A DNA stretch of 34,460 nt, taken from IMG/VR virus record IMGVR_UViG_3300036402_000100, positions 1-34,460 of that record. One strand, given 5' to 3'. This document shows positions 3,503 through 21,194 of this stretch, one piece after another; positions within the stretch are counted from its first letter, which is position 1, and the number at the start of each line of letters is the position of its first letter. Below the pieces are notes generated by a model. The model did not search any database and had not been told where the DNA came from. It saw only the letters and a list, made by a program, of their open reading frames with translations. The stretch is from a virus. A program made the position numbers and the translations under genes.

Positions 3503-5257
3503 TCACTCGAACTCGACATCGACCCATACCGTCCTGCCGTCATCGACGACCTTGACCACGCGACCCTTGCCGGTCACGAGGTGCTCCTTAGACTTCTTCC
3601 AGTGTTCGGCGGTGGGGTTGCCCTTGAGTGGGATGGCCTCTACACCCTTGACTCGCACCATAACTTGTTTAGATGCCCGACTCGACGAATACTTCCGCGC
3701 CACCACATCATCGGTGGTGAATGACGAGAAGTTGGTGTCGAAGTCGGCGCCCTCGGTAAAGAGCTTGCTGATCTTCTCCTTGGGCACGTCGAGACCCTTG
3801 TAGAGCACGCGCGGCTTGACGACCTCTTGGGCGTTTAGCCAGCGCGCCGCATCCTCGATCGAGCCACGCACATCGCCCTCGGTGAATCGCACGGGCGTGG
3901 TGCCCTCCTCGACAGTGCCTGTATAGGTCTTAACCCAAGCCTTGGGCAGTCCGACGCCGGCGAACGGCTGGGCGCCCTCGCGGAGGTTTTTGGCGACCTT
4001 CTTGACCGCCTGCTCTGAGCGGAAGTCGTTCTGCAAGAGCACATTAGCGCGCTGCCCGGCATCCTCGACGTAGCGCCAATCGCCGCTCGTGAGGGCCGAT
4101 TTGCGCACCGAGGGGCTGGCACCACGGACGGCCTTGGCCACGGTGGTGGGCGGCACGTAGCCCCTCAGCCGAGCGGTGGCCTCAAGGGTCGCCGTCCGGA
4201 TGGCCTCACGCTCGGCCTTGACGCGCTCGATCTGGGCACGAGTCTCGGCCAGCTTGGCGGATGCCTTGGCCTTCTCGTCGGCGTGTTTGGCAGGCGCGGG
4301 GGTGGGGGTAGGTGCCTTGGGCGGCGGGGAAGAGTGCCGTGGCTGATCGGGCGGGCCCTGGGGCCGAACCCTGGGCACGGTGCGGGTGTTGAACTTGCCG
4401 CGCTTGACGGCCGCGCCGGCGTGGGCCTGCACGGTCTTAGGGGCGTCCACGCCGTCGTCGAGGAGCTTCTTGGCAGCCTTGATGCGCACGCCCATCGATT
4501 CGGATTCGAGGGAGTAGCCACGGAGCACCGAGCGGCGCGCCTCACGCTGCAAGGCCTCGGCATAGGCCGGGTCGTTGAGCACCTCCATGTGACAACGGCA
4601 GTGAGGGTGCAACGGGGGCGTTTTCACGGCGTCGTCGTAGGTGTATGGTCCGAACGACAGGCCAGCGGGGAACTTCCCCCCGACCTGCACGACGTGGCCC
4701 GAGTGAGCCAGGCATCGCACGCACGCATCTCGCTCGGCTACCCAGACCATGGGCATCTTGGCGATCCGGGCCACGTCGGTGGTCCCCTTGGCGGCCTGCT
4801 CGTGGAGGAGCCATTGGAGGCCTGCCGTGGTGCTCCTGCCGTTGGCGATCATCACGCCGGCCGCGGTCGCGGGGTCGATGCCGGCCAGGAGGAGGGCTTG
4901 GGCCTTGAATGCGGCCTTGGCGATGTCGTCGAGCATCCCCGCGGCGTGCACGGGCGGCGGCACCTGGGCGCGCTTGAGGATGGTGCCCAGTTGCTCATCG
5001 GTGGCCGATCGTCCGACGATGGCCCCATTATCGAGCACTGAGGTTACATAGGCCGCATCGATGTTGGCAGTGACGGCCGCGAGGTCAAGGGCGCCCGATC
5101 GCGCGAGCGAGATGAGCTCCCCGATCTTGGCCGCCACATTAGGGTCGCCGAGCGCCACGAGCTTCTTGAGCTCCTCCACGGCCGTCAGGTACGGGCCCGC
5201 CCCCTCGGCAAGTAGCTGACGCTCTAGCGCGAGGAGGTCGTCGTCGATGGCGGGCAC
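3503..5257 (-). CDS. MuF-like minor head protein fused to an ADP-ribosyltransferase-like domain
   Basis: A 584-residue protein starting with GTG, 3 nt after the portal stop. Residues ~100-230 carry the MuF (Mu gpF/SPP1 gp7) signature: C179 and C182 in DACVRC, then PPLHPHCRC with H217, H219, C220 and C222. Residues ~295-330 are a Pro-rich linker, followed by a charged helix to ~365. The C-terminal ~130 residues resemble the bacterial toxin-type ADP-ribosyltransferase fold: LYKG (485-488) where the family has LYRG, FSSFT (510-514) at the Ser-Thr-Ser position, and SKEHL with E558 at the catalytic Glu, followed by a beta-rich end (GRVVKVV). The first Glu of the usual ExE is Ser here and the motif-1 Arg is Lys, so activity is uncertain. 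MuF proteins travel in the head next to the portal, so the domain may be injected with the DNA to modify a host target. The MuF call is solid; the transferase call rests on motif order. Confidence 0.8.
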   Translation of the reverse strand: MPAIDDDLLALERQLLAEGAGPYLTAVEELKKLVALGDPNVAAKIGELISLARSGALDLAAVTANIDAAYVTSVLDNGAIVGRSATDEQLGTILKRAQVPPPVHAAGMLDDIAKAAFKAQALLLAGIDPATAAGVMIANGRSTTAGLQWLLHEQAAKGTTDVARIAKMPMVWVAERDACVRCLAHSGHVVQVGGKFPAGLSFGPYTYDDAVKTPPLHPHCRCHMEVLNDPAYAEALQREARRSVLRGYSLESESMGVRIKAAKKLLDDGVDAPKTVQAHAGAAVKRGKFNTRTVPRVRPQGPPDQPRHSSPPPKAPTPTPAPAKHADEKAKASAKLAETRAQIERVKAEREAIRTATLEATARLRGYVPPTTVAKAVRGASPSVRKSALTSGDWRYVEDAGQRANVLLQNDFRSEQAVKKVAKNLREGAQPFAGVGLPKAWVKTYTGTVEEGTTPVRFTEGDVRGSIEDAARWLNAQEVVKPRVLYKGLDVPKEKISKLFTEGADFDTNFSSFTTDDVVARKYSSSRASKQVMVRVKGVEAIPLKGNPTAEHWKKSKEHLVTGKGRVVKVVDDGRTVWVDVEFE

Positions 5258-18715: not shown

Positions 18716-20479
18716 GTGGCAAAAGATAAGAGCAAGAAGAAGGCCAAGAAGGTCGAGCCCAAGAAGGGCAAGGCCGCCAAGGAGAGCAAGGGCAAGAAGG
18801 CCCCCAAGCTCGTCACCGAGGTCATCCCCATCCCGCACCTCGAACACCTCGACAAGGTGGGCCGTGCGCTCGCCGTTGTGCAGGACAAGAAGAATCACTC
18901 CAAGGAGGCCCGCAAGAAGGCGGCCAGGTTTTTGGTGGAAGCGCGTGAAGCAACCCTTGACCGTCAGGCCGCCAAGGCCCTCGCCGACGCCATTGACCGG
19001 GCCGACGCCACCCGAGTAGTGGCGTACAACGAGACCCAGGGCAGGGCCGACGGCCACTATCTGACGAGTGACGCGGAGCGTGACGCGGCCGTGGCCTCGC
19101 TCGCCTCCACTCTCGTCATCAAGCTCACCCCCGATGAGGTCGTGCAGGTAGAAGGCGCTCTCGACTCGGTGGGCAAGCCCGCCCCCGCCCTGGCCGAGGT
19201 CATCACCGACGCTGAGCGCAAGGCCCGCATCAAGGCCAAGAAGGCGGCACGCGCCAACCCTCCGCTCGGCGACATGACGGAGGAGGAGCGCGCCGCGACC
19301 TTCCCCCAGCCCGACGATCAGGTGGGAGGCGACCCTACGGCCATGGATGACGCCCCCGACGAGGTTGACGCGCCCACCGAGCCCGAGCGCCAGGAGGCCG
19401 AGGAGGTCGAGACCGAGACCGGCCGCGAGTTCTCCGTGGGCCCCACCGCCGAGCCTGGCTCGGGTGGCCTGAGCGGCCCGGCCGAGGATGAGAACACCGA
19501 CTTTGACCTCAACGGCCTCGGTCAATATAAGGTTTGGAACCCCGAGAAGAAGGCCGAGCGCGGCTACACCCGCGTCACCACCTACATCGACTGCCTAGAG
19601 GACAAGGGCCGCCTCACCGACTGGAAAACCCGCCAGGTGCTCATCGGCGCCGGCCTCGACGCAACGGGCGACGGTGTGCTCGTCAATGACACGATCATAG
19701 GCAAGGCCGTCGAGCTCTATGACGCATGGAAGAAGGCCTACCGCAAGACCGCCAAGCGCGAGAAGGCGGGCGAGCTCGACCTTGGCCAGTTCGGCCTCCT
19801 CCGTGCCGCCGCCGACAAGGCGCTCCGTGAGGGTGGCAACGTGCTCGCCGAGCTCGCGCTTGAGTACGCCGGCGCCAACGAGAAGCGCGAGAAGGGCACC
19901 GACCTCCACAAGCTCACCGAGCGATTCGATCGGCACGAGTTCACGCTTGACGACGAGGAGAGCATGGTCGAGGCGGGCCTTGCGACCCACGCTGACTTCG
20001 CCGACCTCCGTGCCTACGACGCCAAGATGCGCGAGCTCGGCATCGAGCACGTCTACATCGAGAAGCGCGTCGTGCTCGATGGCCTCAAGGTGGCGGGCAC
20101 GCTCGACCGCGGCAGTTACTACAAGCTGCCCGGCGCCACTCGGCGCACCAAGCTCGTGGCCGACCTCAAGACCGGGCGTGTCGATTACTCGGCCGCCAAG
20201 ATCGGGATGCAGTTGGGGCTCTACGCCACGGGCGAGGGTTACGATCGCGAGCACCCCGAGGCGCGTGAGAAGCTGGGCCTTTCCAAGACCGTCGCGCTCC
20301 TCATCCACCTCCCCGCTGGCGAGGCCACCTGTACGGTCTACGTCGTTGATCTGACCCTCGCGGCCAAGGGCCTCAAGCTCGCGGCCGAGGTGCGCACCTG
20401 GCGCAACGTCGGGAAGAAGGTCTACGACCTCAAGGCGCCCCTCGGCGCGGTAGTTGACACACCAACTACAACCCCGTAG
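18716..20479 (+). CDS. PD-(D/E)XK nuclease, RecB/Cas4-like, with long N-terminal extension
   Basis: A 587-residue protein; GTG start with AGGAGG upstream. The nuclease core is in residues ~280-570: H398 (KGTDLHKLTERF), D464 (VAGTLDR), D483-x-K485 (VADLKTGR) and Q499 (GMQLGLYATG), the ordered motifs of RecB-like exonucleases. It probably degrades or resects DNA during recombination or host DNA breakdown. The first ~35 residues are extremely Lys-rich (AKDKSKKKAKKVEPKKGKAA), similar to the start of the 20667 protein. Residues ~40-165 are helical and ~185-260 acidic and disordered. The C terminus VVDTPTTTP is encoded by the downstream promoter, and the TAG stop forms the first half of its -10. 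The nuclease call is firm; its polarity and partner are unknown. Confidence 0.85.
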   Translation: MAKDKSKKKAKKVEPKKGKAAKESKGKKAPKLVTEVIPIPHLEHLDKVGRALAVVQDKKNHSKEARKKAARFLVEAREATLDRQAAKALADAIDRADATRVVAYNETQGRADGHYLTSDAERDAAVASLASTLVIKLTPDEVVQVEGALDSVGKPAPALAEVITDAERKARIKAKKAARANPPLGDMTEEERAATFPQPDDQVGGDPTAMDDAPDEVDAPTEPERQEAEEVETETGREFSVGPTAEPGSGGLSGPAEDENTDFDLNGLGQYKVWNPEKKAERGYTRVTTYIDCLEDKGRLTDWKTRQVLIGAGLDATGDGVLVNDTIIGKAVELYDAWKKAYRKTAKREKAGELDLGQFGLLRAAADKALREGGNVLAELALEYAGANEKREKGTDLHKLTERFDRHEFTLDDEESMVEAGLATHADFADLRAYDAKMRELGIEHVYIEKRVVLDGLKVAGTLDRGSYYKLPGATRRTKLVADLKTGRVDYSAAKIGMQLGLYATGEGYDREHPEAREKLGLSKTVALLIHLPAGEATCTVYVVDLTLAAKGLKLAAEVRTWRNVGKKVYDLKAPLGAVVDTPTTTP

Positions 20480-20504: not shown

Positions 20505-20553
20505 CCCTGGCCCGCCTCAACCGAGGCCGTGGTGAGACTCGAAAGGGCCAGGG
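20505..20553 (+). ncRNA. Leader stem-loop upstream of the tRNA-like element
   Basis: CCCTGGCCC (20505-20513) pairs perfectly with GGGCCAGGG (20545-20553). Directly stacked inside is a second helix, GCCTC (20514-20518) with GAGGC (20523-20527) around the loop AACC, leaving a 17-nt single-stranded bulge on the 3' side. It starts about 16 nt after the predicted transcription start and ends 5 nt before the tRNA-like element. No T-run follows, so it is not a terminator. It may act as a leader domain of one composite RNA. Confidence 0.6.
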
Positions 20554-20558
20554 TGCAA

Positions 20559-20615
20559 GGGCCGGTGGTGTAAGGCAGCACTCTAGAGGTGGAGGTTCAA
20601 TTCCTCCCCGGTCCA
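20559..20615 (+). ncRNA. 57-nt anticodon-armless tRNA-like element with alanine identity bases
   Basis: Acceptor GGGCCGG (20559-20565) pairs over all 7 bp with CCGGTCC (20608-20614). The D arm is GTGT/GCAC (20568-20571, 20578-20581) with loop AAGGCA, keeping A14, A15, G18-G19 and A21. T8 and G9 are present. The T arm is GGAGG/CCTCC with the canonical loop TTCAATT. T48 is available to pair with A15. Positions 26-47, normally a whole anticodon arm, are only 8 nt (TCTAGAGG). The acceptor has G1-C72, G2-C71, G3.U70 and A73, the set read by alanyl-tRNA synthetase, which ignores the anticodon. CCA is not encoded and would need to be added. The D arm resembles bacterial tRNAs with GTGGTGTAA..GGCAGCAC, so it probably derives from a real tRNA by deletion. 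It cannot decode. It lies in the leader of the next gene. Confidence 0.75.
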
Positions 20616-20666: not shown

Positions 20667-21194
20667 ATGGCCAAGGACAAGAGCAAGTCAAAGAAGGCCG
20701 AGCCGGTCGTCGAGGAGAAGGTCAAGAAGGGCAAGAAGGCCGCCCCGGTCGAGGAGCCCAAGAAGGCCAAGAAGGCCAAGGATGAGGCGCCCGCCAAGGG
20801 TGGCAAGACCAAAAAGGGCTCCCTCGGTGGGCCGGGCTCAACGGCCCAGTTCTCCGCCGAGGAGTGGACCGACCACCTCCTCCTGATCACGCCCAAGAGC
20901 ATCGAGCACGACATTGTGACGAGCAACGGCACCGCCGACGCGACCCGCGCCGACATCGTCGTGCTCGACACCAACCCGCCCAAGCTCATCGACAACGCCC
21001 TCATCTTCCAGAAGGTCGTGCAGGGTCAACTGCGCGAGGCGGTCGAGAGCAAGGGCCGCGTGGTCGGCACCCTGTTCGTGGACACGGCGAGCAAGAAGGC
21101 GGGCCAGTCGGCCCCCTACCGCATCGCCGCCCCCTCCAAGAAAGACCTGGCCAAGGGTCAGGCCTACTTGGACAAGCTCGACCCGCTCCGTTAG
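20667..21194 (+). CDS. Putative ssDNA-binding protein with Lys-rich tail
   Basis: A 175-residue protein from the ATG at 20667, with GAAAGGGG upstream inside a duplicated CGCTAACGAAA (20636-20657). An upstream in-frame start runs through the tRNA-like element and is rejected. Residues ~1-52 are Lys/Ala/Pro-rich (MAKDKSKSKKAEP), as in the nuclease at 18716. The globular part alternates strands and a helix (DHLLLITPKSIEHDIVTSNG, then DIVVLDTNPP, LIFQKVVQGQLREAV, RVVGTLFVDTA), compatible with an OB-fold. I infer a phage single-stranded DNA-binding protein from the pattern and the nuclease neighbour; no motif proves it. It has its own promoter and terminator, so it is likely highly expressed. Confidence 0.5.
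   Translation: MAKDKSKSKKAEPVVEEKVKKGKKAAPVEEPKKAKKAKDEAPAKGGKTKKGSLGGPGSTAQFSAEEWTDHLLLITPKSIEHDIVTSNGTADATRADIVVLDTNPPKLIDNALIFQKVVQGQLREAVESKGRVVGTLFVDTASKKAGQSAPYRIAAPSKKDLAKGQAYLDKLDPLR

Follow-up and report, generated by a model that had tools for sequence, protein, structure and literature searches.

Why would a phage keep a transfer RNA (tRNA) that cannot read a codon? The question is raised by a 57-nucleotide (nt) element in the 34,460-base IMG/VR record IMGVR_UViG_3300036402_000100 (hereafter the window, with positions counted from its first base), which lies between an exonuclease gene and a gene of unknown function and has a short spacer where the anticodon arm of a tRNA belongs. 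We describe here its homology to tRNA, its relatives in other phages and the locus around it, and weigh the roles that such an RNA could play. The claims on structure and class, namely tRNA homology, loss of the arm and recurrence in phages, we consider highly probable, while the role of the element is a matter of more tentative argument.

The element and its tRNA homology

The element reads GGGCCGG TG GTGT AAGGCA GCAC TCTAGAGG T GGAGG TTCAATT CCTCC CCGGTCC A. A reading of the letters alone, made before this analysis (the sequence-only reading), had described it as a tRNA-derived, non-decoding RNA with the canonical tRNA core, and all the core features then named are indeed present: an acceptor stem of 7 base pairs (bp) with G3.U70 as its third pair, a D stem of 4 bp of which the fourth is a T13.G22 wobble, a T stem of 5 bp closing the loop TTCAATT, and the residues T8, G9, A14, A15, G18, G19, A21, T48 and A73. 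The CCA end is not encoded, the bases after A73 being CGC. The tRNA model RF00005 matches the element over model positions 1-71 with 43.6 bits against a gathering score of 29 (E = 3e-6 for the whole window searched with all 4227 families), far beyond chance, and the alignment skips 13 positions of the anticodon arm. This is the sole RF00005 match across the record. ARAGORN reported neither a tRNA nor a transfer-messenger RNA (tmRNA) at the element, a failure that the sequence-only reading had predicted. The minimum-energy fold is only mildly special (z = -2.15), nearest-neighbour energies prefer a slightly different D region (-24.7 versus -22.8 kcal/mol for the tRNA fold), and the case for the element is built on homology and covariation, not on folding energy; judged in this way, the element is a true homologue of tRNA without the anticodon arm. 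It is probably non-coding, because the first residues of the downstream gene P0002, MAKDK from 20667 on, recur at the start of the syntenic genes of relatives.

A recurrent class in phage genomes

The first relative was detected by BLAST in Microbacterium phage WilliamStrong. Mercedes and Juicer, from the genus of WilliamStrong, have this element as well, unannotated, upstream of DNA polymerase I; the DNA match reaches Jemerald too. For a wider search of IMG/VR, two DNA patterns were used that allow 1-14 nt between the D stem and the T-arm motif and set no constraint on the acceptor. The pattern with the D-arm type of the window gave 10 contigs and the other more than 119 contigs, and narrower patterns gave further matches. 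After parsing, 144 distinct matching sequences were obtained, 102 of them forming 6 or 7 of the seven acceptor pairs and 4 or 5 of the five T pairs; the counts out of 102 given below refer to the distinct elements within these cut-offs.

Since the patterns say nothing about the acceptor, its pairing is a fair test. Among 115 dereplicated matches not chosen for pairing, 89 form 6-7 of the 7 acceptor pairs, against about 4.4 (maximum 13 in 1000 trials) after shuffling of the acceptor partners. Covariation was found in 12 of 16 pairs in a table of 62 sequences, which was drawn from elements already selected for pairing, so that the 115 unselected matches remain the fair control. The expectation of the sequence-only reading that covarying acceptor and T stems would be found in other phages together with a missing anticodon arm is thus strongly borne out. 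The spacer is 8 or 9 nt long in 80/102 elements, with the consensus CTTGGGKC, and its final C (C48) is present in all 49 elements with an 8-nt spacer, as expected for a G15-C48 tertiary pair. The window element has all the features of the class, namely the 7-bp acceptor, the 4-bp D stem, the short spacer and the 5-bp T stem with GGTTCRANTCC. A covariance model of the class, R1, was built from 62 elements including that of the window, and scores the elements of WilliamStrong, Mercedes and Juicer, which are not in the model, at 34-37 bits.

Armless elements are rare in bacterial chromosomes. One specific pattern matched 25 viral contigs, whereas bacterial and archaeal genomes, 257 Gb in all, gave only 12 matches, of which about half have a proper acceptor; two of the latter are Acinetobacter contigs in which element and flanks are the same as in viral contigs L024 and L107. 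Each of 18 whole viral records carries exactly one armless element, and 13 of the 18 have no other tRNA-like match, which argues that the members of the class are not remnants in tRNA arrays. No neighbour gene shared by the class was found. Open-access literature searches returned nothing relevant on anticodon-less phage tRNAs, and the class is apparently undescribed, with an earlier description still possible. It is in our judgement evenly balanced whether phages of many hosts keep such non-decoding tRNAs, one copy each, as functional RNAs for a common and so far undescribed job, the window element being a member with an alanine-type acceptor.

The relationship to ordinary tRNAs is best seen at one intergenic site near the packaging genes of Streptococcus phages, where three forms share the upstream flank: Javan565 has a complete tRNA-Phe, contig L118 an armless element, and Javan577 a longer variant in which a second hairpin resembles a T arm. 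At this locus the armless form replaces, is replaced by or derives from an ordinary phage tRNA, and decoding is dispensable there, the tRNA fold being kept while the anticodon is lost. Composite tRNA-like sequences with two T-arm-like hairpins are not limited to the Streptococcus locus but occur in several other viral contigs as well (L015, L016, L021, L023, L101, L108 and L206 1269-1381).

Comparison with known systems places the class close to ordinary phage tRNAs (RF00005), with which it shares homology, the acceptor, D and T arms, the elbow residues and, in one armless copy, the tRNA-Phe site of a relative; unlike them, the armless element has no anticodon arm, cannot decode and mostly leaves CCA unencoded (CCA is encoded in 11/102 armless elements versus 10/12 ordinary tRNAs in the same loci). 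The mascRNA and MEN beta tRNA-like RNA (RF01684) is about equal in size, tRNA-like and reduced in its anticodon arm, but stems from mammalian long non-coding RNAs, with no shared descent with the phage element shown; RF01684 matches the window element weakly (21.9 bits, E = 0.041, below its gathering score of 42.5). The mascRNA is cut from a longer RNA by RNase P and RNase Z. The tRNA-like domain of tmRNA carries G3.U70 and A73, has no anticodon arm and is charged with alanine. The window element is like it in G3.U70, A73 and the missing arm, but unlike it is 57 nt in all, has neither a tag reading frame nor a long RNA, and has a normal D stem. The M3 RNA of phage phi80, a small phage RNA named as an RNase P substrate (PMC11143913), was considered as founder of the class and rejected, being an oop-like hairpin RNA that does not match the class model. 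The truncated, minimal tRNAs of nematode and mite mitochondria, with one arm missing (PMC2797822), lose the D or the T arm and keep the anticodon, the reverse of the phage element. Another unannotated tRNA-like sequence was noted in Korravirus (L161 about 1437-1526; Arthrobacter phage Glenn, reverse strand of KU160645), with the acceptor TGGGACC/GGTCCCA and a T arm separated by about 50 divergent nt; records of 105 Arthrobacter phages match it at the DNA level, in many cases only at the T arm, the acceptor and a downstream promoter-like part.

The locus of the element

The window genome is actinophage-like, and its exonuclease and the one encoded by Microbacterium phage Isperia share 41% identity. 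Its module order (terminase, portal, capsid, wrap-around to tail, with the replication genes on the opposite strand) agrees with that in Isperia, Wyvern and OscarSo, which have complete genomes of 32-34 kb, and for this reason the gene content of the window is probably near complete. By gene order against Isperia, the record (1-34460) seems to be a near-complete genome with a cut inside the head-tail module. The features around the element, which lies between the exonuclease gene P0001 and P0002, are listed in Table 1. The promoter-like site agrees with the consensus at 10/12 positions, where 0.2 such sites are expected by chance in the region, an agreement that does not prove function. P0001 and P0002 have in common a lysine-rich N terminus (VAKDKSKKKAKK / MAKDKSKSKKAE; window 18716-18820 and 20667-20780), as if a leader peptide had been copied.

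Table 1. Features of the armless element, of its surroundings in the window, and of the leader RNAs in related phages (contig labels L003-L170; all other positions refer to the window).
Feature	Position	Strand	Evidence
Upstream gene P0001, phage exonuclease	18716-20479	+	phrog_466 exonuclease, 1.7e-53
Promoter-like site TTGACA-17-TAGAGT, partly within the 3' end of P0001	20454-20482	+	consensus scan
Stem-loop upstream of the element, CCCTGGCCC / GGGCCAGGG, 9 bp, inner GCCTC/GAGGC hairpin	20505-20553	+	sequence and fold
Anticodon-armless tRNA-like element, tRNA positions 1-73 minus the anticodon arm	20559-20615	+	RF00005 43.6 bits; class model R1 42.6 bits, E = 8.9e-13
Acceptor stem, 5' strand GGGCCGG (G3 at 20561)	20559-20565	+	pairing with 20608-20614
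D arm GTGT-AAGGCA-GCAC	20568-20581	+	sequence and RF00005 alignment
8-nt spacer TCTAGAGG replacing the anticodon arm	20582-20589	+	class spacer length peak 8-9 nt
T arm GGAGG-TTCAATT-CCTCC	20591-20607	+	sequence and RF00005 alignment
Acceptor stem, 3' strand CCGGTCC (U70 at 20612), then A73	20608-20615	+	sequence
Downstream gene P0002 (MAKDKSK...), function unknown, starting 51 nt past the element	20667-21194	+	phrog_870, 3.7e-18
Conserved leader RNA upstream of the P0002-type gene	L003 23475-23596; L004 24370-24490; L005 25307-25424; L007 13970-14103	-	stem and kissing loops
Conserved leader RNA upstream of the P0002-type gene	L164 about 4810-4890; L167 4670-4745; L169 4995-5080; L170 4775-4855		stem and kissing loops

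Alignment of the exonuclease gave seven IMG/VR relatives of the window phage, while searches by P0002 or P0001 alone obtained none. In eight phages, namely Isperia, Wyvern, OscarSo, SM23 and four of these seven relatives, the site between the exonuclease and the P0002-type gene carries first a long GC-rich stem and then a hairpin, and the loops of the two are complementary. The summed loop complementarity over the eight phages reaches 73, whereas shuffling gives 43 on average and 55 at most, and the loop-loop pairing is kept through sequence change. These kissing loops of the Microbacterium-type leader covary, for example GGTGATGC/GCATCACC, CGCTGA/TCAGCG and GATGCTGA/TCAGCATC; no Rfam family matches the leader in L003-L005 and L007. 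The long GC stem of the relatives stands in the place of the stem-loop of the window, to which it may be homologous. The kissing-loop pairing is absent from the window, where the tRNA-like element takes its place. With a stem and hairpin in the relatives and a tRNA-like element in the window, the site before the P0002-type gene tends to carry a structured leader RNA, which fits a role in cis without proving it.

Roles considered for the armless tRNA

With a probability of roughly 0.4, we propose that the window phage keeps a tRNA without anticodon arm for its fold and not for decoding, and that this RNA is excised with an action in cis on the P0002 transcript. What can be read from the alignments is the homology, the loss of the arm, the class with its covarying acceptor, and the replacement of or by a full tRNA at the Streptococcus locus; transcription, folding and cutting would follow from these as set out here. 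The promoter-like site some 80 nt upstream may drive transcription of the element, and the transcript would fold into the acceptor/T stack and the D-T elbow. Host RNase P would cut the 5' end and RNase Z or exonucleases the 3' end, enzymes for which this half of a tRNA suffices, so that the P0002 leader would be severed and the upstream hairpin removed. The P0002 mRNA would then have a defined 5' end some 50 nt ahead of its start codon, and the same cut would release a stable RNA of 57-60 nt. RNase P, RNase Z, the CCA enzyme and EF-Tu recognise the acceptor/T stack and the elbow, while codon reading on the ribosome needs another part of the tRNA. Because the former is kept and the latter is gone, we rank excision by tRNA-processing enzymes first, and regard the job of the element as a cis cut in the first place and a trans role of the released RNA in the second. 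In T7-like phages, one element lies between the head assembly (scaffold) and the major capsid/head genes (L172) and another between the major head (capsid) and tail genes (L176); transcript processing is plausible at these places in late operons, where the elements would likewise shape mRNA ends.

Several observations weigh against excision with an action in cis. A sense gene start lies within 160 nt downstream of 17/91 elements, compared with 9 in the antisense control, a weak bias where strict operon punctuation should affect orientation more strongly, and 10/71 elements are antisense to both flanking open reading frames by crude gene calls. The stretch read in all seven exonuclease-aligned relatives lacks the element, so that close relatives of the window phage manage without it; no relative with the element at this locus was found. 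Few elements encode CCA, though encoded CCA helps bacterial RNase P. A strict leader role across the whole class was rejected, the tests of orientation and gene start being weak; sense terminators downstream (6/92 against at most 2 in controls) are too few to build on.

The weak bias in neighbour orientation makes a role in trans a serious rival, in which a free-standing tRNA mimic would bind and titrate a host tRNA-binding protein, for instance EF-Tu, an enzyme of tRNA processing, modification or CCA addition, or a defence factor that targets tRNAs. Such a role, unlikely as we hold it, agrees with the single copies, with the lack of a fixed neighbour gene and with the copies antisense to both neighbours, and C74 in 65/102 and A76 in 58/102 elements suggest a tRNA-like 3' end; but it has no known target, no loop or partner sequence is conserved outside the tRNA core, and some copies lie within late structural operons. 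It is less probable still that the element is a decaying phage tRNA gene, its arm deleted and its sequence now drifting with no function. Loss of tRNAs is common in phages, an armless form takes the place of a full tRNA at the Streptococcus locus, and the window element is itself one sequence only. Decay is, however, hard to reconcile with acceptor pairing kept through free sequence change, with the narrow spacer length, with single copies in phages mostly without other tRNAs, and with so few matches in 257 Gb of bacterial genomes, which hold far more tRNA genes. An integration-site remnant was rejected, for an attachment site (attP) derived from a tRNA gene would keep the 3' half only and the window has an intact 5' acceptor strand and D arm; no integrase was found among the window proteins scanned, which weighs against it as well. 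An anticodon arm encoded just upstream was also rejected, the anticodon-like hairpin before L097, L125 and L064 looking like the 3' end of a reading frame.

The sequence-only reading had seen in the element a complete alanine identity set and had predicted an alanyl-charged, non-decoding product. On this hypothesis alanyl-tRNA synthetase would charge the RNA through G3.U70 and A73, and the RNA would serve as alanine donor, EF-Tu ligand or synthetase sink. The window does carry G1-C72, G2-C71, G3.U70 and A73, and thus the pair and base by which alanine acceptors are recognised. Of eight elements with G1-C72, G2-C71 and A73, six have G3.U70 (the window, L096, L098, L099, L106 and L120), and the elements of Neferthenavirus, a genus of Microbacterium phages, have the same set if the acceptor is read as GGGGTAG/CTGTTCC, while R1 aligns it one base further on with mismatches; the window, the five other contigs and probably Neferthenavirus share an alanine-type acceptor. 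G-T pairs are in excess at acceptor position 3 (9/25 versus 20/190 at the other positions, in unselected matches), an excess equally expected if some elements descend from tRNA-Ala genes. Across the class the prediction that G3.U70 is kept fails: the pair is present in only 12/102 elements, base 73 varies (A46 G21 C18 T17), and the homologues L029/L031 and L113/L140, with flanks and fold in common, have G3.U70 and A3-U70, respectively. For these reasons alanine identity, on the sequences compared, is not what the class conserves, and the variable base 73 together with the mostly unencoded CCA speaks against charging as the general purpose. No alanine transferase was seen among the window proteins scanned, and we regard an alanyl-charged RNA as quite improbable. 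Least probable of all, with a very slight chance, is membership in the YrlA type of bacterial Y RNA, a non-decoding tRNA mimic bound by the Ro protein. Related Microbacterium phages FuzzBuster and SM23 do encode Ro (TROVE) next to a tRNA-mimicking RNA, but the window record has no TROVE (PF05731) match while both of these have, and their RNA has the T arm before the D arm, whereas the window element has the ordinary tRNA order and closes an acceptor stem of its own. Membership is refuted by the lack of a Ro gene and by the order of the arms, unless a host Ro protein binds the element. The YrlA-like RNA adjoins the Ro/TROVE genes in FuzzBuster and SM23 (L006 39089-39215 and L007 26660-26780, both on the minus strand), and the 67-nt tRNA-Asn annotated in SM23 is part of it and probably not a tRNA.

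ARAGORN, a standard tRNA finder, missed the window element as well as the armless copies in the loci scanned, and RNAs of this build therefore go unannotated; model R1 is a means of annotating them. A recurrent phage RNA with the body of a tRNA minus its anticodon raises the question of what phages use the tRNA shape for, with transcript processing, titration of tRNA enzymes and escape from tRNA-targeting defence as candidate uses. As cultured and named phages carry the element (Microbacterium phages Mercedes, Juicer, Jemerald and WilliamStrong), this question can be tested at the bench; the recurrence of single copies in many unrelated phages suggests that the tRNA shape serves them in something besides translation.
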